Below are positions 17,156 through 63,394 of a stretch of 64,000 nucleotides of DNA, one piece after another; the stretch's first letter is position 1, and the number at the start of each line of letters is the position of its first letter. Location: positions 15,341,147 through 15,405,146 of the forward strand of contig OZ038457.1 in assembly GCA_964036195.1 (NCBI GenBank). Reading direction: 5' to 3'. Both the position numbers and the translations under genes were made by a program. The notes under the pieces are model-generated. The model had not been told where the DNA came from. It saw only the letters and a program-made list of their open reading frames with translations, and ran no database searches. The DNA is from Sphaerolaimus hirsutus. Taxonomy: Eukaryota; Nematoda; Chromadorea; Monhysterida; Sphaerolaimidae.

Positions 17156-20100
17156 ATGGCGCGACCTCTTTCACGTATGGTGTGGCGGCGGCCTCCTGCA
17201 TTCCCGTCTGTATCTGCGTCGCGGCTGGTGAGTGGCTGCTCCTGTGTGGAGCTTATGTCGCTGCCCTACTTTTGTGTACATACTTGGGCGTTCATTGATG
17301 CAGAGACCGTCAATATACTCTCAACTGTAAGCGGAGATGAACTCTGTTTAGTTGACCCAATATGAACAGTCTCAGTATTAGTGTAGATTTGTCAAACGAA
17401 TTAATGTCATCATGAAAGAAGCTGGATTGTCATAGTGCAGAACCAGGATTGATTTTTCTGGTCAATAAAATTTTTTAGTTTTAAGCACCAAAGATCCTGG
17501 TTGTTGGGATACTTTTGTGATAGAAGGTAATTGGCAAGTTTAAAAAACAAATATACGTGCAGGGGTTCAGTAGGGGGGGTACCCCCCCCCCCAAGTCCGC
17601 CAGCTATCTATCCCGGAGGCCCGCTCAGCTATCTATCTATCCCGGAGGCAAAATTTTGGGCTACTATCCCCTAACCCCCCCCCCCAATCGGCCAGCTATC
17701 TATCTATCTGGAGCGATTTTAAAGAAATTTTGCCCCATTTTTCGCTCAAAATTTTCATACATTTTTATAGTTTTTCACATTAAAAATTCTAAGTCATGTT
17801 TCGTATTGCCTATATTCGGCTATTTTTTGTACCATATGTACTAATATACCTTTTTTCAGCTGTTTTGCTCCTACTTTTAGCGATTTTTCCCCTTTTCTTC
17901 ATTCTATACCTCGGAAAAGCCTATATATTGAACCCCCGCGACCCCCCCCCCCTAAAACCCCGCCCCAACCCCCCCCCCCCAAAAAAAAAAAAAAAATTTC
18001 AGCTATCTATCGCTCCGGATTTACTTTGATTGTGGAAATTTTTGCATAAGATTGATCAAGTGGTCTCAGCTCAAACATGCAATTTTTGCCAACTAAATTG
18101 TAAATGGTCAATGAGGTGTGATTCACACAGCAAATCTAAGAAATAAATTATTTTAAAAATATTATTGGGAGCTTCTTTTATGCTTTTCCAAATCTCTACA
18201 GCAATCATATTACCACGGAAGGTACGACCTATACACTGGCTATCATATTATATATTATATCTTCTAGTCTTATCTTTATCCCCCTTAGAGGTGATTTACA
18301 AGAAAAATGAAATTCAATGTGACTCGAGCGGTTTAAAGAAAGTCGATTTTATAGTAAAAAAACCCGGCCACTTAAAAAAAATGGGTTTTTAACGAGCCCT
18401 AGGCAGGACCGGCTTTCACTTCTCTCGTTTCAGGTTCCTCGTGAATGCTGCGCCCGACCACTGGCAACTGCCGCCAATGCTGCCCAGCGAGACGAAATTG
18501 ATGAGTGAGTGTCACCTTTTTCTTGTTAGGCGTCGAGATTTTCTGATCGTTGATAGTCTCATTTGGACCTCATCGCGAACCTTACCTAATGGCGACGCAC
18601 ACACTTTTTGACACATTTGACACATTGTCAACTGGTCGTGGTCAACTCTCATTTCAGCTCCACGTCTCGCGAGCGATCTTTCAACGCACCTGCCATAATA
18701 TTCATTTTTCAACATTGCCGTATGTGCATTTGGAGATCGCCCCGCGACACGTGGAGCCGGAATATGAGTTGACACAGACCTGTTGACACACGTGTGTCAA
18801 CTAGTATGCAGGCCGACATTGATGCATACAATATCCACAGCACTAAAGCCCCCCCCAGGGGTCTCGAATGGGGGGGGGGTTACCCCCCCCCAAACCGCCC
18901 AGCTATCTATCTATCCCGGAGGCCGCTCAGCTATCTATCTATCCCGGAGGCAAAATTTTGGGCTACTACCCCCTAAACCCCCCCCCCCCAAATCGCTCAG
19001 CTATCTACCTATCTGGAATGATTTTTCAGAAACTATACCCCAATTTTCGCTCAAAATCGCTATTTTTCATACCTATATATAGATTTTCACCTCCAAAATC
19101 ACTGGTTCATGCGTCTAACTGCCTATTTTCAGCTATTTTAAGTACTATATGCTCTTGTATACCCATTTTGAGCTATTTTACACCTACTTTTAGAGATTTT
19201 TCTCCCTTTTATTCCTTCTATGTCCCGAAAAAGCCTATATATCGAACCACCACAACCCCCCCCCCAAACCCCCCCCCCAACCCCCCCCAGAAAATTTTTC
19301 AGCTATCTATCCCTCCGGAGGAGCGATTTGCTATCTATCCAACCACTCGGAGGATCAAAATTCAAGATACCCCTGGCCCCCCCCCCCCATGCCCACTAGT
19401 GATGGAATGGCGCCATGGCGCTGGCGCCATTTAAGGGCGCCAAAGGGCGCCGCGCCATGGCGCCATTGGCGCTTGGCGCCCTTTTTCTGTGGCGCCCATG
19501 GCGCCTGGCGCCCACTTTCTGAAAAGCGCCATGGCGCCCTTGGCGCTTGGCGCCCTTTTTCCGTGGCGCCCTTGGCGCCTGGCGCCCTGCTTTAAAAGGG
19601 CGCCAAAATGGCGCCAGCAGGGTTTCAAGGTGAGCGCTGCGAAAATGATAAAAAATAAAAAAGCGCGTCGGTGGATAATCGAAATTCGCTGGAAAAATGC
19701 ACGTGGAGCCAGGCCAGTGGATTGAAATCTTTTGTCGAATGGTTTTCCAGACACTTCTGCTGGATCAGAAGCTGAGAATGATGGCCGTGGAACCTGCCAA
19801 ATCAACGGATTCAAATCATTTTAATTCCGTTTTCGTCCACTTTGAAAAAACACCCGTTGGATCACTCTATTTGAGATGAATGCATTGTTTTGTGAAATGA
19901 CAATTTTCATTGCGTTTGAATTGAAATTATGTGTGAGTATGATATTCTGCAAAAGTTTTGTTGCTAGTTTCGTTTTTGTTGATTACATCCTAGAGAACAT
20001 TAATAAAGAAGTGTATGTGTGCAATACAGTGTTGGAGAACCATTTTTAGCACACGAGGGTATCATACACACTTATTATCCTGGCGCCCTTGGCGCCTGGC

Positions 20101-23013
20101 GCCTAAGTTTCAAATGGCGCCATGGCGCCCTCTTTCCGTGGCGCCCTTGGCGCCTGGCGCCCAGTTTCCGAATGGCGCCATGGCGCCCTTGGCGCCTGGC
20201 GCTCTTTTTTGGCCTGGTGGGGGCGCCCACTTCCCGAATGGCGCCATGGCGCCATTGGCGCCTGGCGCCCTTTTTTCTGGCGCTTTTCCATCACTAATGC
20301 CCACCACTCAGCTACATCCGGTCGCACTGGAACACCACAGTAGCCGCCGACGACGCCGATGTGCTGCAGCTGCACGAGGCACTCACCAGCGGCCAGCGTG
20401 CCGCCCTCGCCCGCGCCATAACTCTGGTTGAGTCCACGACCAGCATTAAGCGAGCCAGGTGCCCGTCCCAGAACCTGTAAAATGCCGTGTGAAATGACAA
20501 ATGTGATGTAAAGTGTCAATAGTCATGTAGAATGCCCAGCAAAATGGCAAACACGTTTGCATGATATTTATGTATTTGTTATTTTACAGGGCATTTTACA
20601 GGCTCTGGGACCGCCCCCAGGGGTGACCGTTTGCTTGCAATGCTGCTGGCCGATGCCAGGGAGAAGATGCGCCAAAAGGGCCCTCAGAGCCTCATATTTA
20701 GAATAGGTATGTCTATTAGCTCATTTGGTGTTGTCCAAACTGGCGCCCACATTCTGGTGGTCATAAACCTTTTTATCGTATACTGACCATCAGGCATTTC
20801 TGGATCACCGGGTGTGGGTAAATCGTCTTTCATCGAGGCGCTCGGCATGCGGCTTTGTGAGCAGCACAAGAAACGTCTCGCAGTGCTCACGGTCGACCCT
20901 AGCAGTATGTCCGGCGTGCATCCACCAGGCCACGTTGGCCACAAATACGTAGGCGGTAAGTTTCACCACTTGAAGCATGTGCTGGTGAGAGGCTCGAGCT
21001 GAGTGTTTCACCCGACCCTGTGCCCCGTGGACCTGTATTATATTTGTGTAGATAAATGTGTGTTTAGGTATTTACGATTTACGTAAATAAATAAACATAT
21101 TTATCTGCCTACATGAATTTATTTACATGATTACAAATCTGTATATTACTTGTCTCTTTACTTTTAACGTACGTCTTTCAAGGCCGTCTACCAGCGCAGG
21201 CTCGATCCTGGGCGACCTGGCGCGCATGCAGAACCTGTCGTGCCACCCCAACGCCTACATCCGACAGTCGCCCACGTCGGGTGCGCTGGGCGGTGTGACG
21301 CGCGGTACACACGACGCCATCGTGCTGTGCGAAGGCGCCGGCTATGACGTGGTGCTCGTCGAGACTGTTGGTTGGTTAATGTGTTCAGTTCACTAGTTTT
21401 TCCAGATTTTCAGCCTCCGGGGTTGGATAGATAGCTGAAAAAATTGGGCGGGGGGGGCGGGGGTTCCATAGAGGGTTGGCACTTGATTTTTTTAACTGAT
21501 TTTTTTTAAATCTGATTTTTAATTAAAAAAAATCAAAGGGTGGAAACTGATTTTAATTTAAAAAAATCAAAAGGCAATTTTTCTGGTAGATCTGTACTAG
21601 GTATTTTGCATTTTTTTTGCGCGCAAGCGCGCAATTTCTCATACATATATTTTTTCTCTATACCCCCATTTTGGGCGATTTTTAAAAAAATCTGATTTTA
21701 ATTTTTAAAAATCAATTTAAAAAAAAAAAAATTGATTTAAAAAAAAATCAAGGCGTTTAAAAAAATGATTTTTTTCCAACCCTAGTTCCATATATAAGCT
21801 TTTACAAGGTGTAGAAAGCAGAAATGGGGGGGGGGGTTGCTAAAATGGAATATAAGCACATTCTACATAGGTATTTAGAAAGCGCATAGAAAAATGAGCC
21901 TGAATAAACAAAAATGGCAAAAAAGTTAGCCTCCAAACCGAAACTGAAACAGAAAAATTTTGCCGGCGGGAAACAGAAAATGGAAATTTGACACCCTATT
22001 TAGTTGTGACTGTTTTCCAGGCGTGGGCCAGTCCGAGACGACGGTGGCCGACATGGTGGACATGTACGTGCTGCTGGTGTCGCCGGCGCAGGGAGACGAA
22101 GTGCAGGGCGTCAAGCGCGGCGTGATGGAACTGGCCGATCTTGTCGTTGTCACCAAGGCCGATGGTTCCATGGAGAGTGCCACCAAGATGACAGCTTCTG
22201 AGTATATGTCTGCGTTGAAATATATGCAGCCGCGGCACAAGTTCTGGAAGCCGTCTGTTAGTTTAAACTGAACTGTTTTTCCACATGCAAATTTGATCGG
22301 GTTGATAGTGGGTATTTACGTTTAGTCTGAAATACGCGTAAAACCGCGTACTCGGTAAATACTCATGGGTGAATACTCATAAATACTTACTCACAATACT
22401 TAAATAGTACCAGTACCAGGGGTCTCCTAGGGGGGGGGGGGGCTGGGTGGGGGCTGCCCCCCCCCCAAATCCGCCAGCTATCTATCTATCCCGGAGGCCG
22501 CTCAGCTATCTATCTATCCCGAGGCAAAATTTTTGCCTACTACCCCCAAAGCATTCGTAAAAGTGGAAGTATGGTAAAAATGGAAGAATGGTAAAAAGTT
22601 CAGTACTTTAACAACTCTGCAACCCTGTCAGGTTCAACGCGCCTCATCTGTGACCGGGCTGGGGCTGGACGACGTGTGGCAGACCATGCAGGACTACTGG
22701 GCCACCCTGGGTCAGACGGGCGAGCTGAAGTTGATGCGCGACAGACAGATGACCTCCTGGATCTGGCAGCACGTGCAGGACGAGGTCATGACCGTGTTCG
22801 CTAAACATCCGGATATTATTGAAATGGTTGGTTTTACAGATTTTTTAGTGCGCTTGGGTAAATACATTTAGTTGTCTGACCGAAATTGTTGGATTATTTT
22901 TACAGTTTCCAAAATTGGAGGATGCTGCTAGACGAGGTGAAATAACCCCGGGCATGGCGTCGGAGCGTTTACTCAAATGCTTCATGAGAGTGCTGAAGGC
23001 TGGCGACGAGTGA
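17156..23013 (+). CDS. MMAA: MMAA homologue, mitochondrial cobalamin-pathway GTPase
   Basis: Exons: 17156-17227, 18434-18504, 20312-20458, 20621-20706, 20794-20904, ~21183/21200-21370, 22021-22256, 22632-22826, 22906-23013. Exon 1 encodes a basic, Ser/Arg-rich leader ([14 protein letters not shown]), a likely mitochondrial targeting peptide. The [15 protein letters not shown] helix, P-loop [32 protein letters not shown], the [10 protein letters not shown] strand, TKADG base-recognition motif and the C-terminal dimer arm are all MeaB/MMAA signatures. MMAA protects and reloads adenosylcobalamin-dependent methylmalonyl-CoA mutase in the mitochondrial matrix. The start of exon 6 is unsettled: the best donor and acceptor would remove the conserved Ser/Gly loop after DPSS. 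The intron 20459-20620 is nearly a single MITE. Confidence 0.92.
17562..18010 (+). mobile_element. CAGCTATCTATC-family element, right end decayed
   Basis: Starts CAGGGGTTCAGTAGGGGG and has the family order: two CAGCTATCTATC...CCGGAGG units, ACCCCCCCCCC, CCAGCTATCTATCTATCTGG, AT-rich core, CTCGGAAAAGCCTATATATT, and a C-tract followed by CAGCTATCTATCGCTCCGG. It lies in MMAA intron 1. The family's right terminus is lost. Confidence 0.6.
18850..19381 (+). mobile_element. CAGCTATCTATC-family hAT-like MITE, complete
   Basis: Runs from CAGGGGTCTCG to GATACCCCTG between C-rich flanks consistent with a GCCCCCCC duplication. It is the clearest full copy (about 530 bp): paired CAGCTATCTATCTATCCCGG units, the CCTATATATCG box, the right-hand CAGCTATCTATCCCTCCGG unit, and GAGGAGCGATTTGCTATC. 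In MMAA intron 2. Confidence 0.65.
19397..20296. mobile_element. hAT-like element with GGCGCC-repeat interior
   Basis: Termini TAGTGATGG and CCATCACTA are flanked by a perfect 8-bp duplication, ATGCCCAC (19389-19396 and 20297-20304). Both subterminal regions are built from GGCGCC, GGCGCCATGGCGCC and TTGGCGCC units. The middle (about 19625-20080) is unique sequence with only a short open frame and no transposase match. The right duplication abuts the acceptor of MMAA exon 3 (20312). A short relic of the family lies at 4831-4870 and others at 46205-46275 and 46515-46575. Confidence 0.85.
20459..20620. mobile_element. Candidate introner: CCTGTAAAATG inverted-repeat MITE forming a whole MMAA intron
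   Basis: The intron runs from GTGCCCGTCCCAGAACCTG to CTGGGACCGCCCCCAG, and the ends are inverted copies (GTCCCAGA-CCTGTAAAATG). Exon 3 ends GCCAG|GTG and exon 4 starts CCAG|GGGTG, so a CCAGG-TG target copy appears on each side and seems to provide the donor and the acceptor. Related copies are at 39262-39480, 43632-43795, 51765-52185 and 58515-58650. Confidence 0.55.
21410..21860. mobile_element. CAGCTATCTATC-family fragment with nested hAT-like MITE
   Basis: Outer sequence: GGTTGGATAGATAGCTG with a G-run on the left and TATATAAGCTTTTACAAGGTG on the right. Nested at 21471-21784 is a GAGGGTTGG...CCAACCCTA element flanked by the exact 8-bp repeat GTTCCATA (21463-21470 and 21785-21792). Its interior alternates AAAAATCAGATTT-like blocks around a GCGCGCAAGCGCGC core. 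In MMAA intron 6. Confidence 0.75.
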
Positions 23014-23604
23014 ATTTGAAAAACGTTAGCTACATTCTGCGTGATGTTGATATTTTACACTCAAAAATTAAGAAGCGTCGCCGGGCTAACTGAAGATGAA
23101 ACATAGAATTCTTTAGAATCAAATTTAGTTGATTGCACGATAGACGTGCGAACTCGTGCGTGTTTTCTAGTGCTTCATGTCAGTTCATACACTTGTCAGT
23201 TCATTTGTACGGGCAGTGAGATGTCCGCTAGGAAACGTCACATAGAATTTTGTGTTGGCGTGGCTGTTTTTGGTTAGTCGAATGTACGGATGTCGAATGT
23301 CGAGCCCGGTCGCTCTTGCTGATAGTTTTCAGTGCATCCTCGTTCAAGTACCAAACTTTTTCCTGTGGAAAATTTACTACTAAAGATTTTTATCATATCA
23401 AATAGACGTTTAGTTTTGCATTTGCTGGTGTATGGTATTGTACTCCCATTTAATACATTTCGTTCAAGTTTCGTATGCTTACTAAAGACCGCATCATTGC
23501 TGAAAGTATTCAATATTTGTTTATCAATAAAACGGGAACTCTACCATATTTCTGACATAAACGATTGACAGTTCCTGGTGTTCGATTTACATGTCTCCTT
23601 CACA

Positions 23605-33125: not shown

Positions 33126-33133
33126 CAGTGGAC

Positions 33134-33659
33134 AATAGTTGTTAAAACGTATTTACATTTACTCGATAAATACGTATACTCGCGTACTGCGTAAATACTT
33201 TTACGTTTCCCCCCGAAAAAAATACTGGTACTCACATACTTGCGTACTTTTTGAATGAAAGTACGCGAGTACAGAAAACGTGTTTTAAGGGGACAGATAA
33301 TGCCATTTTGCCATACAGAAAGTGACTAACATAGGAAATTTTCCTAAGAAATACTTATGAGGTGAGAAAAACACACATTTTTGATGTATTTCAGAGTAAA
33401 CATTGAAAACACCAATTTGTGAGAAAAATACTCACTTTTACGTTTTCTGTGAGAAAAAAACAACCCATTTTTAATTTTTCCACGGAAAAAATACTCCTTT
33501 TTACGTTTTATCGGGAAAAAAAGTATTTTACTCACATTTTACGCAGTGTAAAAGTAAAAAGAAAATACTTTACGTTTGCTGTACTCAAGTGTGAGTAAAA
33601 TAAAAATACTTTACGTTTAGGTTTACTTTTAAAAAAGTTCAGTATTTTTCACAACTCTG
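33134..33659. mobile_element. hAT-like MITE, GTAAACGTA-rich (CAGAGTTGT family)
   Basis: Flanked by an exact 8-bp duplication CAGTGGAC (33126-33133 and 33660-33667). Left end AATAGTTGTTAAAACG, right end CACAACTCTG. The interior is a mosaic of TACTCAC and AAAGTAAACGTA-like motifs. Confidence 0.8.
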
Positions 33660-33667
33660 CAGTGGAC

Positions 33668-36130
33668 ATGTTCGAGTGTTCACCGGCCACACACACCGTA
33701 ATACAGCATGCTCAGTCGGCCATTCAGATTTTGTGACGTTTATAAAAAAATTACTGAAATGTTGGCAGAAACGCGCTCGATGGGTTTCGGAAGTGGGCGA
33801 ACGAATTGTTTTAAAAACAGGGCAACACCATATCGATTGTGAATTGGAAGAAAGTTTGGAGTTTGATTAGTAGTCTCTCATACCAACACTCCCGTAAATT
33901 TACATTTCCCGGGCTACCTAACGCATGTAAAACAACATGTTTGAAAGTCAACTTTCAGTCATGCGACCTTGACATAAATTCCGGTGGTGCAAAACTTTGA
34001 GTGCACACATTCCGAGTGACTCTACATGATTTACAATACTACGTGCAATGCGCAATTAAAATTCTGAATTTTGCGCGCTTAGTGTGGAAGCTACAGCGGC
34101 AAGCAGGGAAGTGCTGAATGTTCATGCACGTGTAGCTGCGAGTGCGCAGCGGCCAGCGCTGTAGTTGATTTTTGCATCCGCATAGTGTACAGTAGCTCAA
34201 AACGACTATCCAATTAAATATGCATGTAACTGCATGTGAAATAAAATAGCCAACAGATTCTATGACATCACTCCTGCTTATCGAATGCCTTCGATGGCAT
34301 ACCGTCTCGAAAAAGTTCTTGTTGTTCGATGTTTTTTTCTTCCAATACGACTTCTTGAATTTCGAATTTTTCCAAAGTTTTTCCATAGTTTTAAAATTTA
34401 GTTTGTGAATTTTCGAATCTTTTTGAATACTTTTTAAATCTTTTTGAGCACTTTCCGATTTTTTCCCACAATTATGAAGTGACAAAATTGAATCTAGGCA
34501 CTATGGATCCAATCAAGCGCATATTTTCCCCATGCGACCAAAATTACTGCAACACAGAGAGATATCTATTTACAGAGGCTGGACTTACTGACATCTACAT
34601 GAAATTTCACAATGTCTTTAGTGTAATTAACATTTAAAATTTTTTTGTTGTGTTAAATAGATTACAACAATCTTGCCATATCGCGCAGCAACAGTATTGG
34701 GGGGGGATAATTCAAGGGTATTTCGAGGAAATATAGTATATATGTACAATTTCCGTTTCCATAATACAAAGCAGTGATGAGCTGATAAGGTTCCCATCTC
34801 TAGGCTCGGTCAGTAGACTCAATAAAATTACTCGACTGTTTTATTTTACTCCGTAGACAACAATCGCTGTAAAATTCATAACATCATGCCATGAAGAAAC
34901 AAAGGAAGTGACACTAGCAGAAAAAGACGCGGTGTTGACTGATATTTACATATACAGATTTCGAATGTTCATGTTCAAACCATATTTACATTCAGTGTAA
35001 TATTCAACCTGTGTGGGTGTTGAAAATAATTCGCGAATGAAGTAAACATATCGATAGCAACGAAAAAATCAGACTAGGCACTAAAGGTAGAAATTCTAAA
35101 GAATCGATGAGTATATTTTAAACGAAACACCTGCAGACACCACAGAAATAGTGTTAACCAAAAGCTCAAAACGAAGGTGTTGAAGAAAACAGCGCAATCA
35201 TATTTCGTTTGCTTAAATTAAAATTCAGGTATTTACAATATGAATTCCCTTCTGCGACTGGCATTAGCAAGCATAAACAACAAAAATGTGTTAGAAATCT
35301 GTAATAATTTTTGTATTTGATCTAGCGACAAAAGTAAATCAAGTTGGTGCATTCGATTCGCTGGTGGTGGAATCGGGTAGTGCTTCTTGTTGAGTTTTGG
35401 CCTGAATAGGGAGATGATACTTGCAGTTACAGCGTTGTATTTACTTTTACATAGGATTCAGACACATCGAGATACCTTGTCATGTAAACCCGCTAATCAT
35501 GTAGAACCACCAGTCATGTTATTCTACCTGCTGGTAATCTATCTGTGGCGTACATGACTTGTGGGCAGTGTATTAGTGGTGGACATAGATGATCATATAA
35601 ATATAAATAGCACCTCCAAGACACCACGTCAGATAGTCACAATCAGCACACACATAATTCATGTGTACCGCTTGGCAGTGTAGAGTAACACAGCACACAC
35701 ATGGTGTTTGGTGACAGGGGTTGGGAGTAGGGATGGCCGAAAAAGTATTTTTTTCAATGCAAGGTTTTTTTAAAAATAAAACGTTTTTTATTTTAAAAAC
35801 CTTTGAAAACCCCCCTGGGTCATCCCTAGTTGTGAGGGTATTTATATGGTCATGTATGCCCGCCACCAAAACCTTGCCCGCTAGTCATGCCCTTTACATT
35901 ACTACTGGGTTGGATTGGAATACATGACTTAGGGGTTTACATGACTAGTGGGTTTACATGACTACAGGCACAGGTAAATTTTTTCAAACAACATTGAGTA
36001 CCATAAATATATCCAAGGTTGTTTAAAATGAGCCTGTGTCATCACTAATCTAAACCCACCACTCATCTAGACCTGGCACTTATCTACATCTATCCATTCC
36101 TTCTATATCCATGAAATGTGCACTGCCAGC
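33668..36130. other. Intergenic, no gene recognised
   Basis: AT-rich. It contains a 101-bp hAT-like MITE at 35728-35828 (TAGGGATGG...CATCCCTA, flanks GTTGGGAG/GTTGTGAG, 7 of 8 matching). Near 35500-35560, 35910-35965 and 36040-36085, CATGACT/CATGTAAACC-type phrases repeat. No exon of a known family was found. Confidence 0.45.
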
Positions 36131-36811
36131 TGGGTTGGCAAACGATTTTTTAAAAGCTATTTAAAAAAAATTCCGATTAAAAAAAAATCGCAGCCCCTGC
36201 GCCGATTTAAAAAAAAAATCGCTTGGGAAATTTTTTGGTAATCATGCATACTAGGTAAAATGCAAAAATTTTGCGCGCATGCGCGCAGTTTCATGCAAGC
36301 AATCCACCAATTGCTTTTTTCATGGCTTTTACAAGCAATTTGGTGGTGTAGTACCCATTTCTGTGTGCTTTTAAGCATGTGAGGTAGGCTGTGAATCATT
36401 CGGGGGAAGTATACATTGTTTTGCTATGTGTTTTCATATCACACGCGAATGGAAATGCATCCATGTTCACTAAAAAAAAGTGATTTTTATTGTGTTCTCA
36501 TCAAAAACATGCAATTTCTGCAAACATAATTGCAAATGGTCGCTGAAATTTTATTCACGCAGCAAATATAACAATTTTATTACTTTTAAATATCAAAATC
36601 ACTGACTTTTAAGCTTTTCCACAGCTCGACAGTACTCATATTACCACAGAAAGAATAACTGTGCACTGCCTATCAATTTAAATGTCTTTTATTCCCTCAG
36701 AGGCGATTTTTGAGATAAATGGGACTAATTTTGACCCCAGCGATTTTCAATAAAAAGTCGATTTTTTATAAATCGGGGTCGTTAAAAAAAATCGATTTTT
36801 TTCCAACCCTA
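36131..36811. mobile_element. hAT-like MITE with AAAAATCGATTT interior
   Basis: TGGGTTGGC and CCAACCCTA are flanked by an exact 8-bp repeat CTGCCAGC (36123-36130 and 36812-36819). Terminal blocks of AAAAAATCG and inverse; the central 400 bp is unique and includes TGCGCGCATGCGCGCA. Its termini match 21471-21784 and 39904-40056. Confidence 0.85.
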
Positions 36812-37099
36812 CTGCCAGCAGCGGCAGACTTGAACACATGCATGCACACAGTTGCCACCATGATTGCTGCGCAGTACATGTATGCGCATGCATCATAATC
36901 ACAAAATTGCATAAAATGCTGGCCAGGTACACTCGGTGAGCTTTTTTTGTGTGTGGGCAGTGCACATTGCATGATGTCTGTGGGGTATAGATTGGTAGTG
37001 GGTGAATATTTTATAAATGTGTGCCAGGTCCAGATGAATAGCGGGTTTAGATGAGTAGCGGCGTGGCGAGCTGAAGTCATATATTTAGATAGGAAACAG

Positions 37100-37582
37100 A
37101 CCCTGGCGGCAGTGGTCGAGTCTACAGCTGGGAGCTCCGGACCGGCTGCAACCCCGCCAGAATGCACCTGCCCGGGGGGAGCCGTGGCGCTGGTGTTGCC
37201 ATTGTTGCCACCAGCGGCGTCAGCGCTCGCACTCGCACCTGCTTTGAACAAATCAAAACTACAATTAAAGAGAATTATTTATTACAAATGGTACATATTT
37301 ATGTGTAACAAGTTTGAGGTTGGCGAAAGAGACACGAGAAAATCTTATAATCCCAACATATAAAAGAACAGGCTCTATGAGCTGAAAAACTGCAGACAAG
37401 CGAAGCCCCATCGCATTATACTTTCGTCCCATCAAGGTAATGTTGTAAACGTAGCGAACAGTCTTTCGAAAACATAAAAGGGGGTATTGTGAACAGCTTC
37501 CATATGTCAAAACGACGCACCAAGGGCGTGCGGCGGCTGTTGTCGAGGGGATGGTTGCCGTAGCTGCTGTGTTCCCTGTCGC

Positions 37583-37619
<37 letters not shown>

Positions 37620-43600: not shown

Positions 43601-46600
43601 CGCAAGGCCGTACCGTCTGCCACCCTACGCCACGGGGCAGCTCCAGACCCTGTAAAATGTCATGCAAAGTGTCAAAATTAATGTAGAATTCCCGGCAAAA
43701 TGGCCAACGTGTTTGCCATTTTACAACGCAATTTTACATGATTTTTGACACTTTGTATGACATTTTACATCTTACAGGGTCAGAGACTGGCACCAGGATT
43801 TTGTCCCAAAAACATTAATAGATGCATCAATGACACCATTCCACCACAACTCTACAAAAACCACAATCTAGGCAGCAATAATAAAAAGCGAGCACTTGCC
43901 TCTGCTGGCGGTCTCGTCGTGCTCGTGGTCGATGGCGTCGGGGTCGCTCGTGTGGATGAAGTTGGCCAGGAACAGGTCCAGCTCGCGCACCGCTATGCTG
44001 ATGTGGTAGGGGTTGACGCAGAGGGTCGGCTGCGCGCACTCGGCGCACTTCTCCAGGCGCTCCCCGTCCGTTGATTCAAGTGGGATGCCCTGCAGGGGGA
44101 ATTGTTCCTGTGTTCTGGAGTTGGGGTAAAAATGATAGACATAGGCTCGGATGGCATGTAAACCCGCTTGGCATGTAGACCCGCTTGGCATGTACCTATA
44201 GCCCGATAAGCGTTCCAAAAATGGCCGATTATGAGAAAATATAATCTCAGATAATCTATATGAAATTAAATTAAAATAAATCTCTTATGTCATTTGGAAA
44301 ATATAATCTCAGAAAATATGTATAAAAATAAAATTAAATCTCTCGTCTTTTGGAAAATATAGCTAAATCTCTGAGAAAATCTCCCATGTTTGAAAAAACT
44401 GAAAAAAATCTCCTTACTGGAATTTTTCATTTTTTTCTCAATACATTCGGACAACAGAGTCAATATGTATTAAATAAACTATTATGTGTTGCTTTAACAG
44501 TTATTAAACAGTTTAACAGAAATGACAAACAACAACAAAAAATAATAATTTCCAAACATAGCCACGCAAACTATAAAATCTTACACATTGTTCTTCAACC
44601 CCATCATTGAGATTTTTTATATTTTTTTACCACAGAAAAAATACAATTAAACCCCTCTGAAAACACCCCACAAAAATATAAATATAATTAAATCTTATAT
44701 TTTTTCAACGTAAATCTCCCAGAGATTTTAGAACGCTAGGCCCGATACATACCGGGCAGGTCATACATGCCAAGCGGCACGGGCTCGAAATGCTACTCTA
44801 CTTGAACGGCCCACTACAAATTACAAATTCAGTTGATATTAGGGTGTCAAATTTCCGTTTTCCGTTTCCGCAGGCAAATTTTTTCCGTTTTCCGTTCCGT
44901 TTTCCGGCTGCTGAATTTTTTTCCCGTTTTTCATTCTGTTTTCCGGCAACATTTTTTTTCGTTTCCGTTTTTCCGGCTCATTTTCTGTTTTCCAGCTAAA
45001 TTTTCAGTTTTTCCACCTTTTTTTCCATTTTCTGCCTCAATTTCCATTTTTTCTGCCTTTTTTCCATTTTCTGCCTCAATTTTCCATTTTTCCGCCTCAT
45101 TTTACCTTTTTCTGGCTCAACTTTCTGTTTTCTGATCAGCCAAACTGGTAAAAATTCATGCAGATTGTCAATATCGTAAAAAATGTTATGTTTCCAGCAA
45201 AGTTACTGCAATTTTTTTTCACTTCCAGCAAAATTTCAGCAAATTTTTTCCACTTCCAGCAAAATTTCAGCAAATTTTATCCGTTTTCCGGCAAAATTTC
45301 AGCAAGTTTTTTCATTTCCGTGCAAATTTGATTTTTCCGTTTCCGTTTTTCCGGCCTCTTTCCGTTTTCCGGCTGCTGAAATTTTTTTTCCGTTTCCGTT
45401 TTCCGCCAAGTGCAAAATTTTTTCCGTTTTCCGTTCCGTTTTCCGGCCGCTAAAAAATGTTTCCGTTTCAGTAAAAAAATTTTTTTGACACCCTAGTTGA
45501 TATTGTATGTCTGAGAGGCTAGAAAGGATATTATCTCAATTTTTTGGTTGTTATCACTTAACAAGGTACAGAAGTGGTTGCGTCAGCATAGAATTCTGAA
45601 TAGCGAACACAAGGACGTATCCAGGGGGGCGGGGGGGGGGGCGGCCGCCCTCCCCTTCCCGGGCCGGACCAAAAAATGTGAGTAGTGAATACCCTTTGGA
45701 TGGTACACAAAACAGACACTGCCGTTTTTGTCAATTCAGCGCTCGATCTGGGCAAAAAAAGTCATTGTTGAAGGTGCAAATGGTTCATTGTTGGACATTG
45801 ATTTCGGTCGGGTTTTTTAAGCTCGTTTTGTGTTGGTACATAAAACCACCCCTTTCTCAGAAAAAGAGGATTCGGTTCTTCTGGATAAAATTAAAAAAAT
45901 TCATTCCATTTTCATTTTTTTCAATTTGAAAAACAAAAACGTTTTTAAAAAGTGTTCCTCTTTTTCTTAAAAATTGTGGTTTGGGTGGTTTTGTGTACCA
46001 TCCAAAGGGTACCGCTACTAATGTGCCGGAAATGGCACTTTCAGAAGACGATTTTGTCGACAGTTTGAAAAAATGTTGCGCGCAAGCGCGCATTTTCCCT
46101 TCGCAACATATATTTTCGGCTGACCGTTCTCCGCGGCTTCAAAGCCAGTGAAAATGGACTCGATTCGTGTCGCTGTATATGCCTGTAAAATACAGACGTA
46201 TACTGCTGTGTTGGCGCCACTGCCAACGCCAGTGGCGCCATGGCGTGGCGCCTACGAATGGCGCCAGCGCCATGGCGCCATTCCCCTACTACAGGGGTAA
46301 AATTTTAGGGGGGGGCGCCGCCCCCCCCCCGTTCACCGGGCTCCGTATACAATCCGCCCCCCCCGCTCAAAAATCCTGGCTACGTCCCTGAGCGTACAGA
46401 TGACACAAACTTGACAAATTTGAAATCCACAGAACCAGGAGAACCACAGGATTTTTGAGCGGGGGGGCGCCCCCCCCCCTAAAATTTGGCCCTATAGTAA
46501 AGGAATGAAGCGATGTAGGCGCCATTTGTAGGCGCCAGCGCCATGGCAGTATTGGCGTTTGCGCTGGCGCCAACGTATACTATATAGGTATATATTATGA

Positions 46601-48667
46601 CCTAGGTATAGTTACTATGACCACGTGGGGCACTTTTATAATGCTGTTTGGACTCCTGAAATTACATATTAAACAACAGGGTGGGGTTTGCGCGCTTGGG
46701 CGCAAGAAAATTTCCAAAGTACCTACAAAATCGCTTTACAAAAGTGCCATTCCTGGCAAATTTTTATGACCGGCCCGGGAACGGGGAGGGGGGCGGGCGG
46801 CCGCCCCCCCGCCCATCCCTGCGTACGTCCTTGCACAGAACGTAAAACAACCTTGAACAAAATGACCATGACGAGGTCGAGCCGCCAAACTTTGTCCGCC
46901 TGTCTGAGGCAATCGATACGCCTCATCTTGCCTTTCTGGTCTGGATTACTTTGCACGCAAATGGCCGGCCGCTGCCCAGTTACCTGCAAAGCACAGTCAT
47001 AGTTAGTGCGGAAAACCAATGTTGAGCATAAATTCTAGTTACAAATACACAAACCGATAACACAAAGTCCTCTCTGTAATTGGGCTGAATATCCTTTCGT
47101 AACTTTCCCAGCAGTCTGGCCGCCCATCTTTGCTTCATTTCCGGACGTTCATTCTGCAAAGGAGATGATAGTGGTGTAATGAACTTCTGAATAGCAAATC
47201 GTTATTTCACTCAATCTACGTTCTTAACGTTGAAACGCTCAACACCAAAAGCACAGTAAATCTAGTAAACATATTTTAATACATGGCGTGCTGTGAGTGG
47301 GCGGGCTCATTCAGCGTCGTCCGGGTTTTTTTACTTTGAAATGTGTGCTCCTAAAAATGCCGATCCACATCAGCACCCCCCAAACGCTCCAGCTATCTAT
47401 CTATCCCGAATGCCGCTCAGCTATCTATCTATCTAATCGCATATTCGTTGGCTACTATCCCGTGAACCCCCCACCCCGCATTCTAAATGTACCCATTAAC
47501 AGCACTAAAATGTGAAGTCTTCAAATTTGTGCAAATAAATGCACTGATCTACATGCACATTGGTACATTCGGAATTACAAATATTATTTATGCATTTGAA
47601 TGCAACAGCAGTACATCTTACAACAGTATATCCAGAACCGCAAATTTGTTACTGTAGATTGCTACCCAAAGAACCAATAGAAAAATCACTATTTTATTTT
47701 GTGCTTTTAAATGTAAATACAGACATAAAAAAATGTACAGATAAGTACATAAAATTTGAAGGGAGTGTGTAGGGTTCAAACGGGATCCCGATCCCGATCC
47801 CGGATCCCGTGAAATTCCGGGATTTACCAGTCCCGATCCCGATCCCGATCCCGAAACCCCAATCCCGATCCCGATCCCGATCCCGAAATCTCAAAAATAC
47901 CAATCCCGATCCCGATCCCGATCCCGAAAGTTTTCAAATCCCGATCCCGATCCCGAGAAACTCCCAAGTCCGGGATCCCGATCCCGGAAAAATTAGTGGA
48001 AATTATAAAAAGTGAAATAATGACGTTTTTGCATGCAAAAAAGTGGATGCACACCCCCAGCGTCAATTTTATGCCACTTTTCTGGCATCCAACAGTGTTT
48101 TGAGACCATTATGAACAACTGTGAATGCCAGAAAAATGGCCAAAATCTCTATCCCTAGTACCCAATCCCGATCCCGGAAAAATGCCTATCCCAATCCCGA
48201 TCCCGATCCCGTGACCCCAATCCCGGCCAATCCCGATCCCGATCCCGATCCCGAAATCTCAAAAAACCAATCCCGATCCCGATCCCGATCCCGAAAAGTC
48301 AATCCCGTTTGAACCCTAGGAGTGTGTACAATAGATTGGTACTTGTAAAATACCAAGGGTTAAAAAAGCTTGTAGATATGCACATTCAAGATTTGGACAC
48401 CCGTATTCTTCTATTTTTAGTTGCAATTTTGACTGTGTATCTCAAAATTGATGGTTTCAACCCAGCACTAAAACTCCAGTACGCTGTAAGCAGTATCCAA
48501 ATAACCATTAATTCATCCTTCACGGCGCGCTCTTCATCAACACTCATGCGTTTCTCGTGTCGCTTGTAAAAACGTCGCTTAGCCGCTTGCAAGTTGAACC
48601 AAACATAGGAAAACTCCTTCACGTAGGGCAGCAGCGCCTCCACGAACGGATGGAACTCGTCTTGCAT
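37100..48667 (-). CDS. NFI: Nuclear factor I (NFI/CTF) transcription factor
   Basis: Exons in transcript order: 48667-48506, 47153-47055, 46983-46852, 44089-43900, 42302-42237, 42148-41871, 41517-41361, 41075-~40850, ~40631-40609, 40533-40412, 40346-40078, 39864-39498, 39207-38947, 37857-37521, 37238-~37100. The first four encode the near-invariant NFI DNA-binding domain ([61 protein letters not shown], then LCVNPYHI). NFI proteins bind TTGGC(N5)GCCAA as dimers. The C-terminal half is Ser/Pro/Thr-rich with glutamine tracts, one about 30 residues near 37560-37655, as in activation domains. The donor at 43899 is GC (AGAG|GCAAGT). An upstream first exon and the true C-terminus are not identified; exons 8 and 9 are approximate. 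Confidence 0.93.
37560..37660 (-). repeat. CAA/CAG repeat encoding polyglutamine in NFI
   Basis: An interrupted CAA/CAG tract on the minus strand, mostly CAA with scattered CAG. It codes for about 30 consecutive glutamines after a Gln/Pro-rich stretch in the penultimate NFI exon. Mixed codons tend to stabilise such tracts. Shorter glutamine runs occur in the exons at 39207-38947 and 41075-~40850. Confidence 0.85.
38243..38941. mobile_element. hAT-like MITE with CGGTACGGTAAA interior
   Basis: TAGGGTGGCAGA and TCTGCCACCCTA, flanked by an exact 8-bp duplication CGAACATG (38235-38242 and 38942-38949). Both arms are arrays of GCGGTACGGTACGGTAAAT; the middle 400 bp is unique. The duplication overlaps the 3' edge of the NFI exon 39207-38947. 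A sister copy is at 42764-43627. Confidence 0.88.
39262..39480. mobile_element. TGTAAAATGTCA-family inverted-repeat MITE
   Basis: GTCCCAGACAGTGTAAAG on the left and TTACAGTGTCTGAAAATGG on the right, with alternating GACACTTT, CATGACA and TTTACATG units between. It fills nearly the whole NFI intron between 39498 and 39207. Same family as the candidate introner at 20459-20620. Confidence 0.6.
39904..40056. mobile_element. Short hAT-like MITE in NFI intron
   Basis: TAGGGTTGG and GGCCATCCCTA flanked by an exact 8-bp duplication GATGTCAG (39896-39903 and 40057-40064). 153 bp, AT-rich with AAAAATCAG blocks. It makes up most of the NFI intron between exons 40346-40078 and 39864-39498. Confidence 0.82.
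42340..42411 (-). tRNA. tRNA-Pro (anticodon CGG)
   Basis: On the minus strand the acceptor arms GGCTGAG and CTCAGCC pair over 7 bp. The anticodon stem TCTCGC/GCGAGA encloses TTCGGGT (anticodon CGG), and the T arm CCGGG-TTCAATC-CCCGG is perfect. The A box TGGTCTAGTGG and B box GGTTCAATCC are intact, and a TTTTT terminator follows at 42334-42338. It sits in an NFI intron in the same orientation, 38 bp upstream of an exon. No anticodon-loop intron. Confidence 0.95.
42764..43627. mobile_element. hAT-like MITE with CGGTACGGTAAA interior, second copy
   Basis: TAGGGTGGCAGA and GTCTGCCACCCTA with exact 8-bp duplication CGCCACGG (42756-42763 and 43628-43635). It is in inverse orientation to 38243-38941 but shares its unique middle, including TATATTGAGCCCCTACATTG. 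In the same large NFI intron as the tRNA. Confidence 0.88.
43632..43795. mobile_element. CCTGTAAAATG inverted-repeat MITE
   Basis: GCTCCAGACCCTGTAAAATG and CATTTTACATCTTACAGGG with AGAGACTGGC. Same family as 20459-20620. It inserted right next to the CGGTACGGTAAA element. Confidence 0.6.
44840..45495. mobile_element. hAT-like element with TTTCCG-repeat interior
   Basis: TAGGGTGTCAAA and TTTTGACACCCTA flanked by an exact 8-bp duplication GTTGATAT (44832-44839 and 45496-45503). The interior is mostly TTTTCCG, TTCCGTTTTCCGG and CAGCAAAATT units on one strand, so it is strongly pyrimidine-biased. In an NFI intron. Confidence 0.88.
45610..46390. mobile_element. hAT-like element, CAAGGACGTA...TACGTCCCTG termini
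   Basis: CAAGGACGTATCCAGGGG and CCTGGCTACGTCCCTG with AGCGAACA (45602-45609) and AGCGTACA (46391-46398), 7 of 8 matching. The GGACGTAGCCAGG-type end with a following G-tract is common among hAT MITEs. A partial GGCGCC-family relic lies inside near 46205-46275. No intact transposase frame. In an NFI intron. Confidence 0.7.
47770..48318. mobile_element. hAT-like MITE with GATCCC-repeat interior
   Basis: TAGGGTTCAAACGGGA and TCCCGTTTGAACCCTA, flanked by an exact 8-bp duplication GGAGTGTG (47762-47769 and 48319-48326). Both arms are runs of CCCGAT interrupted by short spacers; about 160 bp in the middle is unique. In the first seen NFI intron. Confidence 0.9.
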
Positions 48668-49691: not shown

Positions 49692-52600
49692 ATGGGCGGC
49701 GGCATGGGCGCTACCGGCGACGAGCAGACGCCGTTCAACGTGGTGTTCGTGTTGGGGCCGCCCGGCTGCGGCAAGGGCACCCAGTGCAAACGCATCGCTC
49801 AGGTCAGTGCTTGCACGAGCTCGGGTTGCGGCTAGGGTTGGAAAAAAAACGTGTTTTTTTTTAACTCGATGTTTTTTTAAAAAAAAACAACGTTTTTTTA
49901 AAAAAAAAGTTGTTTTTTTTTATATAAAAAACGTTTTTTTTAAAAGCGCCCAGATATGACCTTGTGTCAACATATATAGGTATATCAGACAGTGGCAATA
50001 CTCTGTGATGTTATATATGACCATATAATGGCTGTGGAGCCATGGGATAGCATTATAAGTGGTGATTTGTGTCAAAAATATCCATTTTTCGTCGAGATAT
50101 CGTTCGTATATCGCCTTATAGTCAAATGTTTGTGACTTCAGGTAAAGTTTGGCACGGAATAGTGATCAAACAAGGTTATAAAAGGAGGTTGTTACTCTGG
50201 GAGTGAAGTTACACACTGTTGACGTACATGGAAGCACATTACCTCAATAGTATATAGTACAGCAACATATAATGGCTTATTAACCCATGGTAGCACATAG
50301 AAATGGATACTTTGATACTAAAAATGCCACAAAACCAATGAAAACAACCACCAATGTAAATTTGTGTGTGGAATTTCGCGCTTGCGCGCAAAAATTTTGC
50401 AAAATACCTAGTGCTTAGTACTAAAAATTTCGGTCGATGTTTTTTTAAAAAAAAAACATTTCGGACGTCATGTTTTTTTTTTAAAAAAACGTTGTTTTTT
50501 AAAAAAAAACATCGGCCAACCCTAGTTGCGGCTGCGCTGCAAGTGTATTTTCAATGTGATATTGAATTTTCGAAAATGCATTTTGCCGCACGTTGTTCGC
50601 AATGCAGTGAGTTACAATGATTTACGATTATATTTTTGATGGTGGGCTTGATTGTCTGTGGTTGTTACAATCGACGCTCAGTCCGATTTTTGTGAATTTG
50701 GCGGTTTTGACTAGGGTTCAAACGGGACCGGTTTTTCGGACCGGGACCGGGACCGGGACCAGAAATTTTTCTTATCGGGACCGGGACCGGGACCGGGACT
50801 AGGTGGTCCGGACCGGGACCGGGACCGGGACTAGCATTTTTCAATTTTCGGGACCGGGACCGGGACCGGGACTGGGGCATCCGGACCGGGACCAGAATTT
50901 GCCGAACCAGGTACCAGGACCACAGCCCCCTTTTGAGCCCTATCGGGACCGATAACCATTTGAATGCATATTTTCAGAAGTTTCATACGATTTTCACACT
51001 TCATTCAATCAAAATTGTCATCAAAAATATAGTAAAAGTCACAAAAATGACATAATGCACAAAAATTATGACAGTGAGTATTGATACATAAGCTGGCGCA
51101 GTGCTTTCTGAAGGTAAATTATATTTTCAGCCTTCTCTGATGTCGAACATGAATGAGAATGTTTGGAACTCACTAAAAAAACGTCAAAAATTCGTCGACA
51201 GAACGAGAATGCGCCGACTGGCGCGAATTTTTTTGAATTTTACAAGTATTTAAAAGGCAAAATCTGGATCCAGTCCGGTCAATTTTTCTTATCGGGACCG
51301 CTGAAAAATTCCGGGACCGGGACCGGGACCGGGACTGGGTGGTCGGGACCGGGACCGGGACCGGGACTGGCCTTTTTCAATTGTCGGGACCGGGACCGGG
51401 ACCGGGACTGGGGTGTCGGGACCGGGACCGGGACCGGGACCGCCCCAGTCCCGACTTTTTGCCGAACCATGTACCGGGACCGCGGTCCCGTTTGAACCCT
51501 AGTTTTGACCAGGGTTGGCAAAATCTCAGAAAAAAATAAAAATAAAATAAAAATAAAATGGAATATTTAAGAATAAAATAAAATAAAATAAAAAGGAAAA
51601 TTTAAGAATAAAAATAAAAATTGTATAAAAATTCGACTTTTTGTAAATTTTTTGTAAAATTGTATAAAAATTCGTATTTTTGTAAAATTGTATAAAAATT
51701 CATATTTTTCATAAAATTTTGTCTCATTGCTCGAGTCTCTACCAGTTTATTCATGTATCTGGGGGCAGTCCCAAGCATTGTAAAGTGTCAAATGTCATGT
51801 AAAATGTCATGCAAAGTGTCGTCATGACAAATGTAAAGTAAAGTGTAAATTGTCATGACCTGTAAAAATTAAAGTATCAATTGTCCATCAAATTGTGTTC
51901 AAATCTCATGTTTTGTATCCAAATAATGTTGTTGTTGACTCCAAATCTTATGTGAACATTTGGATACAAAAACATAAGATTTGGATATAAAACATACTAT
52001 GGATACAAAAACACAAGATTTGGATACACAATTTACACTTTGCATGACATTTGTCATGACAATTGCCACTTTGCTTGAAATTTTACATGAAACGTGACAT
52101 TTTGCATGGCAATTGATACTTGACATTAATTACATTTGTCATGACAATTGACACTTTGCATGACATTTTACAAATGTGCCCAGCACACTCCAGTAGTCCT
52201 TCTACTGAAAATGCAAACCATTCTTATCAATAATTGTAACTTTACACTTGCAGCTAGCTAACAATACAAACTGGATGCAACTTTTGAAAAGTAAGGGAAA
52301 AATTAGTCACAGGTTTTTCATGTATAGGTCTAATTATAACATTTTTCTGGCCTTGCATGCATGTTTCTGATTTTTTGTAAAAATTTTGTAAAATTTTTGT
52401 AAAATTTTTGTAAAATGTGTCATTTTATTTTATTAATGACTTTTGGGAATAAAATAAAATAAAATAAAATGAAACAAGAATAAAATAAAAATAAAATAAA
52501 ATTTTTATACAATTTTTATACAATTTTACTAAAATGAATTTTTATAAAACCAACCCTGGTTTTGACATTTAAACGAGACTCTTCATTTGAAATGGCTGCT

Positions 52601-61440: not shown

Positions 61441-61448
61441 GTACTGGG

Positions 61449-62877
61449 TAGTGATGTTAGAGGCACCGGGAAAAATGGCACCGCACCGCACCGGCACCTT
61501 TACCATCGCGTGAAAAGGGCACCTGGCACCCTGGGGCACCAGCCAAAAAATGGCACCGCACCGCACCGGCACCGATGCCATTCTGAAAAAAATGGCACCG
61601 GCACCTAAGGGCACCGGAGGGTTGCCGGTGCTAGCACCGAAAGGCATCGCACCGGGTAAAATTTTGTGTAGTGAGTTTAAAAGTGCAAGGACCTTGGCAG
61701 GAAGTGCCAAAAGTGCCCTGGCACTTTTCCAACCCCCAGCACCAAAATCTATGGCGCCAGGGCAGTATGGCGCCAACTGCCATGGCGCTGCGCACCAATA
61801 GCGTCACAGCAAAATGGCACCGCAGGGGTCTCCTAGGGCGGGGGGCTGCCCCCCCCCCCCAAATCGGCGAGCTATCTATCCCGGAGGCCGCTCAGCTATC
61901 TATCTATCCCGAGACAAATTTCTTCGCTACTACCCCAAAAGACCCCCCCCCACCAAATCGCTCAGCTATGTATCTATCTGGACTGGTTTTTGAGAAATTT
62001 TGCCCCAATTATTGCTTGAATTATTATTTTTCGCACCTTTTTATAGTTTTTCACCTTCAAAATTGTGCTTTCCGGCTATATACATGGTTATATACCTATT
62101 TTTAGCGATTTTTAACCTACTTTTGGCTACTTTTAACTGATTATTGGCAATTTTTTCCTCTTTCTGCCTTCTTAACCTTGAAAAAGCCTATAAATTGTGC
62201 CCCAGCCAGCCTCCCCCCAGCCCCCCCCCAGAAAATTTTTTCAGCTATCTATCCCTCCGGAGGAGCGATTTGCTATCTATCCAGCCCCCGCAAGGGCCAA
62301 AATCTTGGAGACCCCTGTGGCACTGGAAGCCAAAAGAGTGATGGCGCTTTTTGTGTTGGCGCCAGCACCAACGCCATGCGCGTATGCAGGCACCAGGAGT
62401 ACTCGGTGCCAGGACAAGGATGTTTGTTCGATTTTAACAACATGCTCCTTTCTGACATGTCGGAATCACTTTTATCCGACTCAGAATCAATCATTGTTTT
62501 GTTTAAAATCACTAGTTTTTATGTTTGTCATAAGAAAATCAATAAAAAGAGGCTGTGGGCACATGTTCAACGTGAATTTGATTGGGTCACTTTTTAAATG
62601 AACACACATGTCCTGCAATAATAACCGCAGTTCACGCCCTTGAAACCCTGCCGGGGCTTTTCCCGGTGCCCCACTTTTTCTGACCGGTGCTAGCACCTAA
62701 AGGCACCCTCGAAGAAGGTCACCGCACCGCACCGGTACCGGTGCTATTTTGAAAAAAATGGCACCGGCACCGGCAGGGCACCTCTGAAAATTACGAGGGC
62801 ACCGCACCAGCACCAGTGCTGATGCTTTTCGGTGCCCAGCACCGGGGCACCGGTGCCCCGGTGCCTTTACATCACTA
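61449..62877. mobile_element. hAT-like element with GGCACC-repeat interior, interrupted
   Basis: TAGTGATGTTAGAGGCACC and GGTGCCTTTACATCACTA flanked by an exact 8-bp duplication GTACTGGG (61441-61448 and 62878-62885). The arms are GGCACC, GCACCGCACC and CCGGTGCC units. A complete CAGCTATCTATC-family element (61823-62317) with flanks TGGCACCG/TGGCACTG is nested inside. The termini match those of the GGCGCC element in MMAA. Confidence 0.88.
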
Positions 62878-63394
62878 GTACTGGGGAATATTTTATATCT
62901 TTAATGGGGTTGAATTTAAAAGATTATTAGTCTTACAGCCATCCAAGGACTCGCGTTTTCAATCTCTAGTTTATTCATAGGAAAAATTCCCGTGTCAAAA
63001 CTGACGGCACGTGCAGTGAAAAATACATCGATTCAATGTTATATACGACCGTTTTCTGGGGGAAATGTTTTTTGAAAGTACCCTGTGAAATGCCCCGTCA
63101 AGTGAAAAATCTCAGGCAATTGTCAAGTTTCAAATGCCTATGAAACACTGGCATTTGAAACTCGACCTGAAATTTCAGGAATGACGGAATTAACGCGTGA
63201 CCGCCTTAAAATATAACAAAATACGGTATTAGGTAAATATGCATCGTCGTGAAGCAGGAGTAATCATAGTATAAACAAATAAAATGGATAAATTAGTAAC
63301 CGATAATATTTAAATTTACAGTGACATCAGTGGGAATGACGAACTGAATCAGCAAAAAAACGTGATGGACTGAGATAAATATTTGTGTGATCAG

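Follow-up and report, generated by a model that had tools for sequence, protein, structure and literature searches.

The closest described systems to the elements treated here are Ac/Ds2 of maize and Hermes of the housefly, both hAT transposons. Ac has terminal inverted repeats (TIRs) of the TAGGG type, and the target site duplications (TSDs) of Hermes follow a GTnnnnAC-like consensus. We analyzed a 64,000-nucleotide stretch of the 348-Mb genome of the nematode Sphaerolaimus hirsutus (contig OZ038457.1, C13:15341147-15405146; "the window"), together with loci fetched from elsewhere in the genome; its short elements are non-autonomous hAT transposons of the Ds2 or miniature inverted-repeat transposable element (MITE) kind. 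According to the parts of the cited papers covered here, the left end of Hermes opens with a quasi-palindrome of sense STR1 and antisense STR2 (STR, subterminal short repeat) and continues in antisense copies, the right end carries sense copies, about 220 bp per end are required, and the transposase binds the repeats through its N-terminal zinc-finger (BED) region (PMC10368747). The Ac transposase binds hexamers in the terminal 200 bp, also via an N-terminal zinc-finger region, and Ds2 consists of Ac ends around a filler middle, with an 8-bp TSD (PMC3260210). Ac/Ds2 and Hermes thus already provide precedents for transposase-bound hexamers within 200 bp of the termini, for filler middles, and for polar STRs. 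hAT-derived DNA-binding domains of the CGGBP type usually have CGG or CGC specificity, some prefer A/T-rich sequence, and their matches lie in subterminal regions; two of three adjacent coelacanth paralogues lack common high-scoring 8-mers (PMC8097297).

The nematode elements share with Ac/Ds2 the 8-bp TSD, subterminal hexamers, a filler middle, and TAGGG-type ends, and one family with TAGGGTGTCAA ends (44840-45495 and its relatives) repeats AAACGG, the hexamer described as bound by the maize Ac transposase. They differ from Ac/Ds2 in that several families, each with its own repeated word, coexist in one genome, and sister types lie one base apart at every STR. With Hermes they share the polar left/right layout and the GTnnnnAC-like TSD; unlike Hermes, they have denser arrays, longer words, no full transposase, and a word that differs between sister types. 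In Hermes the first repeat copy is fused to the TIR at the right end only, whereas in our TAGGGTTCAAACG families the first word copy is fused to it at both ends, which bears out for these families a proposal made from the letters of the window (the sequence-only reading), namely, that the internal motif extends the terminal one. The words in hand (CGGGAT, CGGGAC, AACGGA, ACGGTA, GGCGCC, AGCGTA, and AAATAA) fit the specificity range of CGGBP-type and other hAT-derived domains, although those are proteins with measured motifs and here we have the DNA side alone. Coral CMITEs are MITEs too, and their internal or repeated sequence is likewise unusual, but they are piggyBac-related and have conserved middles (PMC2872659), and Atlantic cod hAT MITEs carry unusual repeated sequence as well, but in units of 167-169 bp (PMC12368964). 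What was covered of these two reports contains no word switch, and a literature search whose coverage left out most subscription journals listed no report of a family-wide switch of the STR word.

Our elements follow one plan, with a TIR and a subterminal STR array at both ends and a middle almost free of the word: the middle 30% of 16 elements held no word copy in 12 cases and one to three in 4. The sequence-only reading had described interiors built of one family-specific motif and looking like amplified subterminal sequence throughout, and families with common termini and different motifs. One word per family and different words behind common termini both stand; the word is confined to two end arrays, however, and since the middles are mostly unrelated filler, amplification of the whole interior is not supported.

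The central observation is a one-base switch of the word at every site of a common scaffold. In the CAGAGTTG families, both ends align almost base for base over ~150 bp each across three types whose words are AGCGTA, AGTGTA, and AACGTA. We compared 6 to 7 copies per type, including 12 further copies (four per word) chosen via one known-pure triple run per end, so that ascertainment affects 6 of the 15 STRs and leaves the other 9 free of it; a fixed difference denotes differing majority bases, each reaching ≥75% in its type. Between AGCGTA and AGTGTA, base 3 differs in 15/15 STRs, other STR bases differ in 0/75 cases, and linkers differ in 5/206, three of these at the inner edge. Between AGCGTA and AACGTA, base 2 differs in 15/15 STRs, along with 4/75 other STR bases and 16/207 linker positions; site LE 140, misaligned for seven AACGTA rows, holds one of the 15 base-2 differences and all four of the others, and in a smaller alignment it reads AACGTA in 3/3 copies. 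Site purity is 92/98 for AGCGTA, 86/90 for AGTGTA, and 86/105 for AACGTA (seven misses from LE 140). In each of four cross-type pairs, the STR positions not involved in either switch had diverged less than the linkers (p = 0.09, 0.003, 0.008, and 0.08). Pairwise linker counts overlap between AGCGTA-AGTGTA pairs (18/197, 23/195) and within-type pairs (14/196, 25/196, 25/201), and the linkers of these two types are therefore hardly more different between than within types; AACGTA linkers differ more from both (30/198, 31/196).

One word can come with more than one middle. Within a word type, the middle of locus L018 matches those of L042-L045 at 81-85% and the middles of L046-L048 match one another at 91-94%; the L041 middle has no match to other AGTGTA middles at an E value of 1e-5, L051 matches none, and L031 and L049 match L046-L048 over ~90-280 bases only (68-77%). 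Between types there are only short or transposase-derived matches, such as 153 bases between L029 and L041. Several fillers per word are as expected of a mobilization group.

Word purity extends beyond this alignment. Arrays at 43 TAGGGTTCAAACG ends consist almost purely of CGGGAT, CGGGAC, or CGATAT (6 CGGGAC and 2 CGGGAT in L010_1229, the most mixed of them), and while some of 29 CAGAGTTG 8-mers are chance or decayed, the intact ends among them are dominated by AGCGTA, AGTGTA, or AACGTA. Among the matches listed, the first 100 AARYGT triple runs (part of contig C1) comprise 39 pure AACGT, 27 pure AGCGT, 20 pure AGTGT, and 14 mixed runs, against 8.7, 3.0, and 1.2 pure runs, respectively, expected under independence, and neighboring runs 300-1500 bp apart agree in word and strand in 34 of 37 pairs. 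CGRKAY runs, again among the matches listed, were mixed in 11 of 100 cases (by eye). The GGGACC copy comparison is between the window and locus L002, and for GGCGCC versus GGCACC the alignment was too poor to test a word switch.

The arrays are polar in most families. Word counts on the two strands (+:-) were 19:0 and 0:14 for ACGGTA, 0:16 for AACGGA, 3:35 for CGGGAT, 35:2 for CGGGAC, 15:1 for AAATAA, and 12:1 for AGCGTA, with weaker bias for GGCACC (19:5), CGATAT (9:34), AGTGTA (3:13), and AACGTA (12:4 and 4:9); for the palindromic GGCGCC, bias is undefinable. The left-like end of CAGAGTTG and TAGGGTTCAAACG elements has the word facing its own reverse complement (CGGGATCCCG, CGATATATCG, AACGTATTTACGTT) followed by mostly antisense copies, and the right-like end carries STRs in sense orientation. 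Behind the first word of right-like ends, ACTTTT stands in 11/11 CGGGAT and 4/5 CGATAT ends (by eye), and most CGGGAC right-like ends carry the similar CAGTTTTT. This Hermes-like layout is present in all four CAGAGTTG/TAGGGTTCAAACG loci with both ends and a TSD (L029, L032, L036, L041), and three weaker loci (L028, L034, L033) agree. One polarity is common to 4/4 loci of the AAACGG family, without the left palindrome; the A/T-rich families do not show the layout. A simple microsatellite or satellite was rejected as an explanation of the arrays, given that copies hold STRs and linkers in register. In most families the word sits mainly on a single strand, so mirror-image arrays were rejected for these, though not for the A/T families.

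Remnants of a hAT transposase lie inside some of these elements. The hAT dimerization domain PF05699 has 28 genome matches at E ≤0.001, and we inspected 12 distinct loci with such pieces, eleven from these matches (L034 and L035 overlap) and L041 from a search with a 67-residue piece. In 8 of the 12 the piece lies between two ends whose TSDs are equal at 7-8 of 8 bases: four loci with TAGGGTGTCAA ends and the AAACGG word (L026, L027, L030, L031), one with TAGGGTTCAAACG ends and the CGATAT word (L036), and three with CAGAGTTG ends (L029, L032, L041), the first two being close copies of each other at 97% over 633 bases. L033 has both ends with a nonmatching TSD, L028 and L034 have one end each, and the piece in L037 could not be assigned to an element. 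In L034, a tandem duplication of one hAT C-terminal piece (1498-1680 and 2352-2531, ~850 bp apart) adjoins CGATAT arrays. The coding direction runs toward the right-like (sense) end in 8/8 bounded and 3/3 weaker loci (by eye). In L029, L032, L036, L041, and the three weaker loci, whose left end can be recognized from the palindrome, this tests polarity independently; for the four AAACGG loci it is a check of consistency. In a Pfam scan of four pieces, three passed the PF05699 cutoff and L041 did not. The 67-residue piece has 147 genome matches, and because many are only ~30 residues long, many of them are remnants. PF14372 had no genome match, and none in the controls either.

The hAT affiliation drawn in the sequence-only reading is thus upheld by the domain pieces inside elements of three families and by 8-bp TSDs leaning toward GTnnnnAC, and the search it had proposed for an autonomous hAT transposase yielded pieces between matching ends and no intact gene. 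For the same three families, the pieces would speak against a P element, which makes 8-bp TSDs as well and has a THAP-type transposase. For the CGGGAT, CGGGAC, GGCGCC, GGCACC, ACGGTA, and A/T families, TSD and TIR suggest hAT membership.

Anatomy, polarity, hAT remnants, and the switch at 15 of 15 STRs are established observations. They probably reflect a shift in the specificity of a transposase lineage, followed by replacement of the arrays through selection for mobilization, until the types ceased to cross-mobilize; the binding, the shift, the selection, and the lost cross-mobilization are what we infer. The TIR would serve cleavage, the STR arrays would very probably be bound by the DNA-binding domain (BED or BED/Hermes type) of a hAT transposase, and the middle would be replaceable. 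Families with a common TIR and scaffold would have split into AGCGTA, AGTGTA, and AACGTA types on CAGAGTTG and into CGGGAT, CGGGAC, and CGATAT types behind TAGGGTTCAAACG. The transposase lineage would have shifted first, mobilization would then have selected the matching base at each STR and left the linkers alone, and the word types would thereafter have stopped mobilizing each other. We advance more tentatively the possibility of a transposon speciation in which hAT families split repeatedly, one word base being rewritten at every site faster than linkers drift, and each word marks a separate mobilization group with several fillers. Instead of proceeding gradually, the switch may have been saltational. 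The sister types could show how transposon families split apart, and, if true, the account would explain how close hAT relatives coexist without mutual mobilization. Transposases and transcription factors both pose the problem of how a DNA code spread over many sites can change while its reader keeps working; with thousands of sister-type copies on one scaffold, in which almost only the word differs, it becomes possible to measure by which steps, in which order, and at what cost a specificity switch proceeds.

A functionless word altered by mutation, with CpG deamination in methylated elements turning AGCGTA into AGTGTA everywhere, would account for the position of the changed base, which is the C in a CpG, and single-site decay inside the AGCGTA type does run both ways (2 AGTGTA, 3 AGCATA, and 1 AGGGTA of 98 sites). 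Such symmetric decay predicts equal numbers of AGTGTA and AGCATA runs, yet triple runs genome-wide number 2,081 (control, 4) and 5, respectively, which refutes random CpG decay as sole cause. STR CpGs are nearly all lost where linker CpGs are partly kept (15/15 lost and 4/5 kept in L041; 14/15 lost and 2/5 kept in L018), AACGTA keeps the CpG and changes another base, no CpG change separates CGGGAC or CGATAT from CGGGAT, and of the two bases that distinguish CGATAT from CGGGAT, one is a transversion. We regard this explanation as highly improbable. Neutral homogenization, in which a single variant comes to fill an array by slippage, unequal exchange, or gene conversion, as happens in satellites, is unlikely. 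Runs of 2-4 tandem STRs do exist, and CGGGAT arrays gain and lose copies in 6-bp steps (alignment gaps), but exchange should drag linkers along, and at both ends STRs that stand alone in unique linkers (alignment columns RE 85 and 115; LE 95 and 106) have switched while those linkers stayed. The same comparison divides the proposal of the sequence-only reading that subterminal motifs multiply and diverge between families: stepwise amplification holds for CGGGAT, and the CAGAGTTG types differ instead by an in-place one-base switch.

An arms race, in which a host repressor such as a domesticated BED protein binds the STRs and a new word at every site lets families escape it, also seems quite unlikely to us. 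It would suit a set of zf-BED matches, six of which cluster in tandem at C1:7.466-7.483 Mb; C..C...H frames occur in 6 of the 7 fetched stretches (C1:7466186-7488779 and C1:7679975 for L054-L056 and L058, and also L057 and L059), three of them within the cluster, which may represent domesticated hAT DNA-binding domains. Domesticated domains of this origin with varied specificity are known elsewhere, from what was covered of PMC8097297. Escape, however, needs loss of sites and not a uniform new word, and uniformity suggests a positive binder.

Several points weigh against a specificity shift with array replacement. Mixed arrays are few, though gradual selection predicts intermediates; the base switched between AGCGTA and AGTGTA lies in a CpG, so mutation bias may help; and linker homology is convincing only near the TIR in the TAGGGTTCAAACG families and base for base only on the CAGAGTTG scaffold. 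Three A/T-rich palindromic families have no strand bias (4:7, 4:7, and 5:7). PF05699 pieces were seen in the AAACGG, CGATAT, and CAGAGTTG families only; neither the window nor the CGGGAT and CGGGAC elements in hand contained one, and no intact transposase was found, the zf-BED search giving 10 genome matches of which 7 short stretches were viewed, not for element ends. In the covered part of the Hermes work, the BED domains of the solved complex leave the right-end STRs unbound, and inner STRs are judged unlikely to play a role in cells (PMC10368747); Ac needs no more than three hexamers, which are dispensable for the movement of some Ds1 elements (PMC3260210). Given these results, some STRs of a dense array may go unbound.

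The insertions in the window from which the sequence-only reading set out are listed below by element boundaries, with the span including TSDs in parentheses, strand, and word copies (left, middle, right where three counts are given).

19397-20296 (19389..20304), +, TAGTGATG element; GGCGCC arrays, 16 left, 0 middle, 16 right; TSD ATGCCCAC
21471-21784 (21463..21792), +, GGGTTGG element; left end GAGGG; word AAAAATCA/TGATTTTT; TSD GTTCCATA
33134-33659 (33126..33667), +, CAGAGTTG element; AACGTA word; left TIR decayed to AATAGTTG; TSD CAGTGGAC
36131-36811 (36123..36819), +, GGGTTGG element; left TIR one base short; word AAAAATCG/CGATTTTT; TSD CTGCCAGC
38243-38941 (38235..38949), +, TAGGGTGGCAGA element; ACGGTA on the + strand, 12, 0, 7; TSD CGAACATG
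39904-40056 (39896..40064), +, short GGGTTGG-like element; word AAAAATCA; TSD GATGTCAG
42764-43627 (42756..43635), -, second TAGGGTGGCAGA element, inverted relative to 38243-38941; ACGGTA on the - strand, 6, 0, 8; TSD CGCCACGG
44840-45495 (44832..45503), -, TAGGGTGTCAA element; AACGGA on the - strand, 6, 0, 10; TSD GTTGATAT; hAT C-terminal pieces lie in its relatives L026, L027, L030, and L031
47770-48318 (47762..48326), -, TAGGGTTCAAACG element with left-like palindrome CGGGATCCCG; CGGGAT on the - strand 18, 2, 15 and on the + strand 2, 1, 0; TSD GGAGTGTG
49833-50524 (49825..50532), +, GGGTTGG element; A/T-rich palindromic word (AAAAAACG, TTTTTTAAAAAA); TSD GTTGCGGC
50712-51501 (50704..51509), +, TAGGGTTCAAACG element; CGGGAC on the + strand 17, 0, 18 and on the - strand 2 right; TSD GTTTTGAC
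51510-52558 (51502..52566 with flanks), +, CAGGGTTGG element; AAATAA 8, 1, 6 (one on the - strand); flanked by the shared and a third GTTTTGAC copy
61449-62877 (61441..62885), +, TAGTGATG element; GGCACC, 12 left, and right 7 on + and 5 on -; TSD GTACTGGG
61823-62317, nested CAGGGGTCTCC insertion inside the TAGTGATG element 61449-62877

The sequence-only reading had counted at least eleven insertions with exact 8-bp duplications beside TAGGG/TAGTG/CAGGG termini. All 12 of the 8-mers it quoted occur as flanking pairs in the window, and 11 flank recognizable ends of this type, although in two of these insertions the left end is altered (to GAGGG at 21471; by the lack of one base at 36131); the twelfth, CAGTGGAC, is a genuine duplication around 33134-33659, where the left TIR has decayed. 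A window scan for any equal k-mers flanking 10-bp TIRs (9/10 matching) gave 16, 23, 3, 15, 1, 1, and 0 matches for k = 5 to 11, the values for k = 5 and 6 having no control; first-order Markov shuffles (20 each for k = 7, 8, and 9) gave 14, 4, and 5 matches in total. Nine of the 15 matches at k = 8 are the elements in question, and the other 6 are chance or array internal. Among 166 same-class TIR pairs within 2.6 kb in the window and fetched loci, whether partners or not, 48 have flanks equal at 8/8 bases and 13 at 7/8. The 12 further copies, picked from the genome-wide word listing, have an exact 8-bp duplication in 12/12 cases, ambiguous end pairs having been settled by TSD match. A tendency toward GTnnnnAC is seen among the 47 distinct exact TSDs (G1/C8 in 40/94, p = 9e-6; T2/A7 in 42/94, p = 9e-4), a set that takes in two further hAT-like families, with CAGGGACGTAGCC and CAGGGGTCTCC ends. 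Copies lacking 8-bp duplications, or repeats varying freely within one family, had been named beforehand as outcomes that would tell against the families; the sample gave neither.

Like MITEs and Ds2, the elements are short, present in high copy number, and without a transposase, with conserved ends and variable filler. The 16-mer TAGGGTTCAAACGGGA occurs 11,202 times in the genome (reversed control, 0), AARYGTAARYGTAARYGTAA occurs 7,925 times (control, 35), and CGRKAY triple runs number 33,483 (control, 12), overlapping runs being counted more than once. Fifteen 10-kb stretches at round coordinates, a sample that omits L010 and L011 (chosen for TIR density), contain 11 array-family elements with TSDs equal at 7-8 of 8 bases, amounting to 7,863 of 150,000 bases (5.2%).

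At 50704-52566, two elements of different families lie head to tail with one 8-bp site common to both, so that GTTTTGAC occurs three times; the later insertion probably targeted the TSD of the earlier one, fitting the GTnnnnAC preference. The CAGGGGTCTCC family has C-runs and AGATAG blocks and no comparable word array (window 18856-19375, 24364-26026, and 61823-62317; L011-L013, L023, and L025). A dense ACTTGA/ATGTCA word array lies at ~8494-9588 of L012, with no usual hAT ends seen around it, and the window also holds a 515-amino-acid open frame with the reverse transcriptase domain PF00078 (13107-14654, - strand). The GGGTTGG-type elements at 21471-21784, 36131-36811, and 49833-50524 (also 39904-40056 and an end at 60737) carry AATCA, AATCG, and AAACG words and, with one or two copies of each in hand, are perhaps another switched trio.

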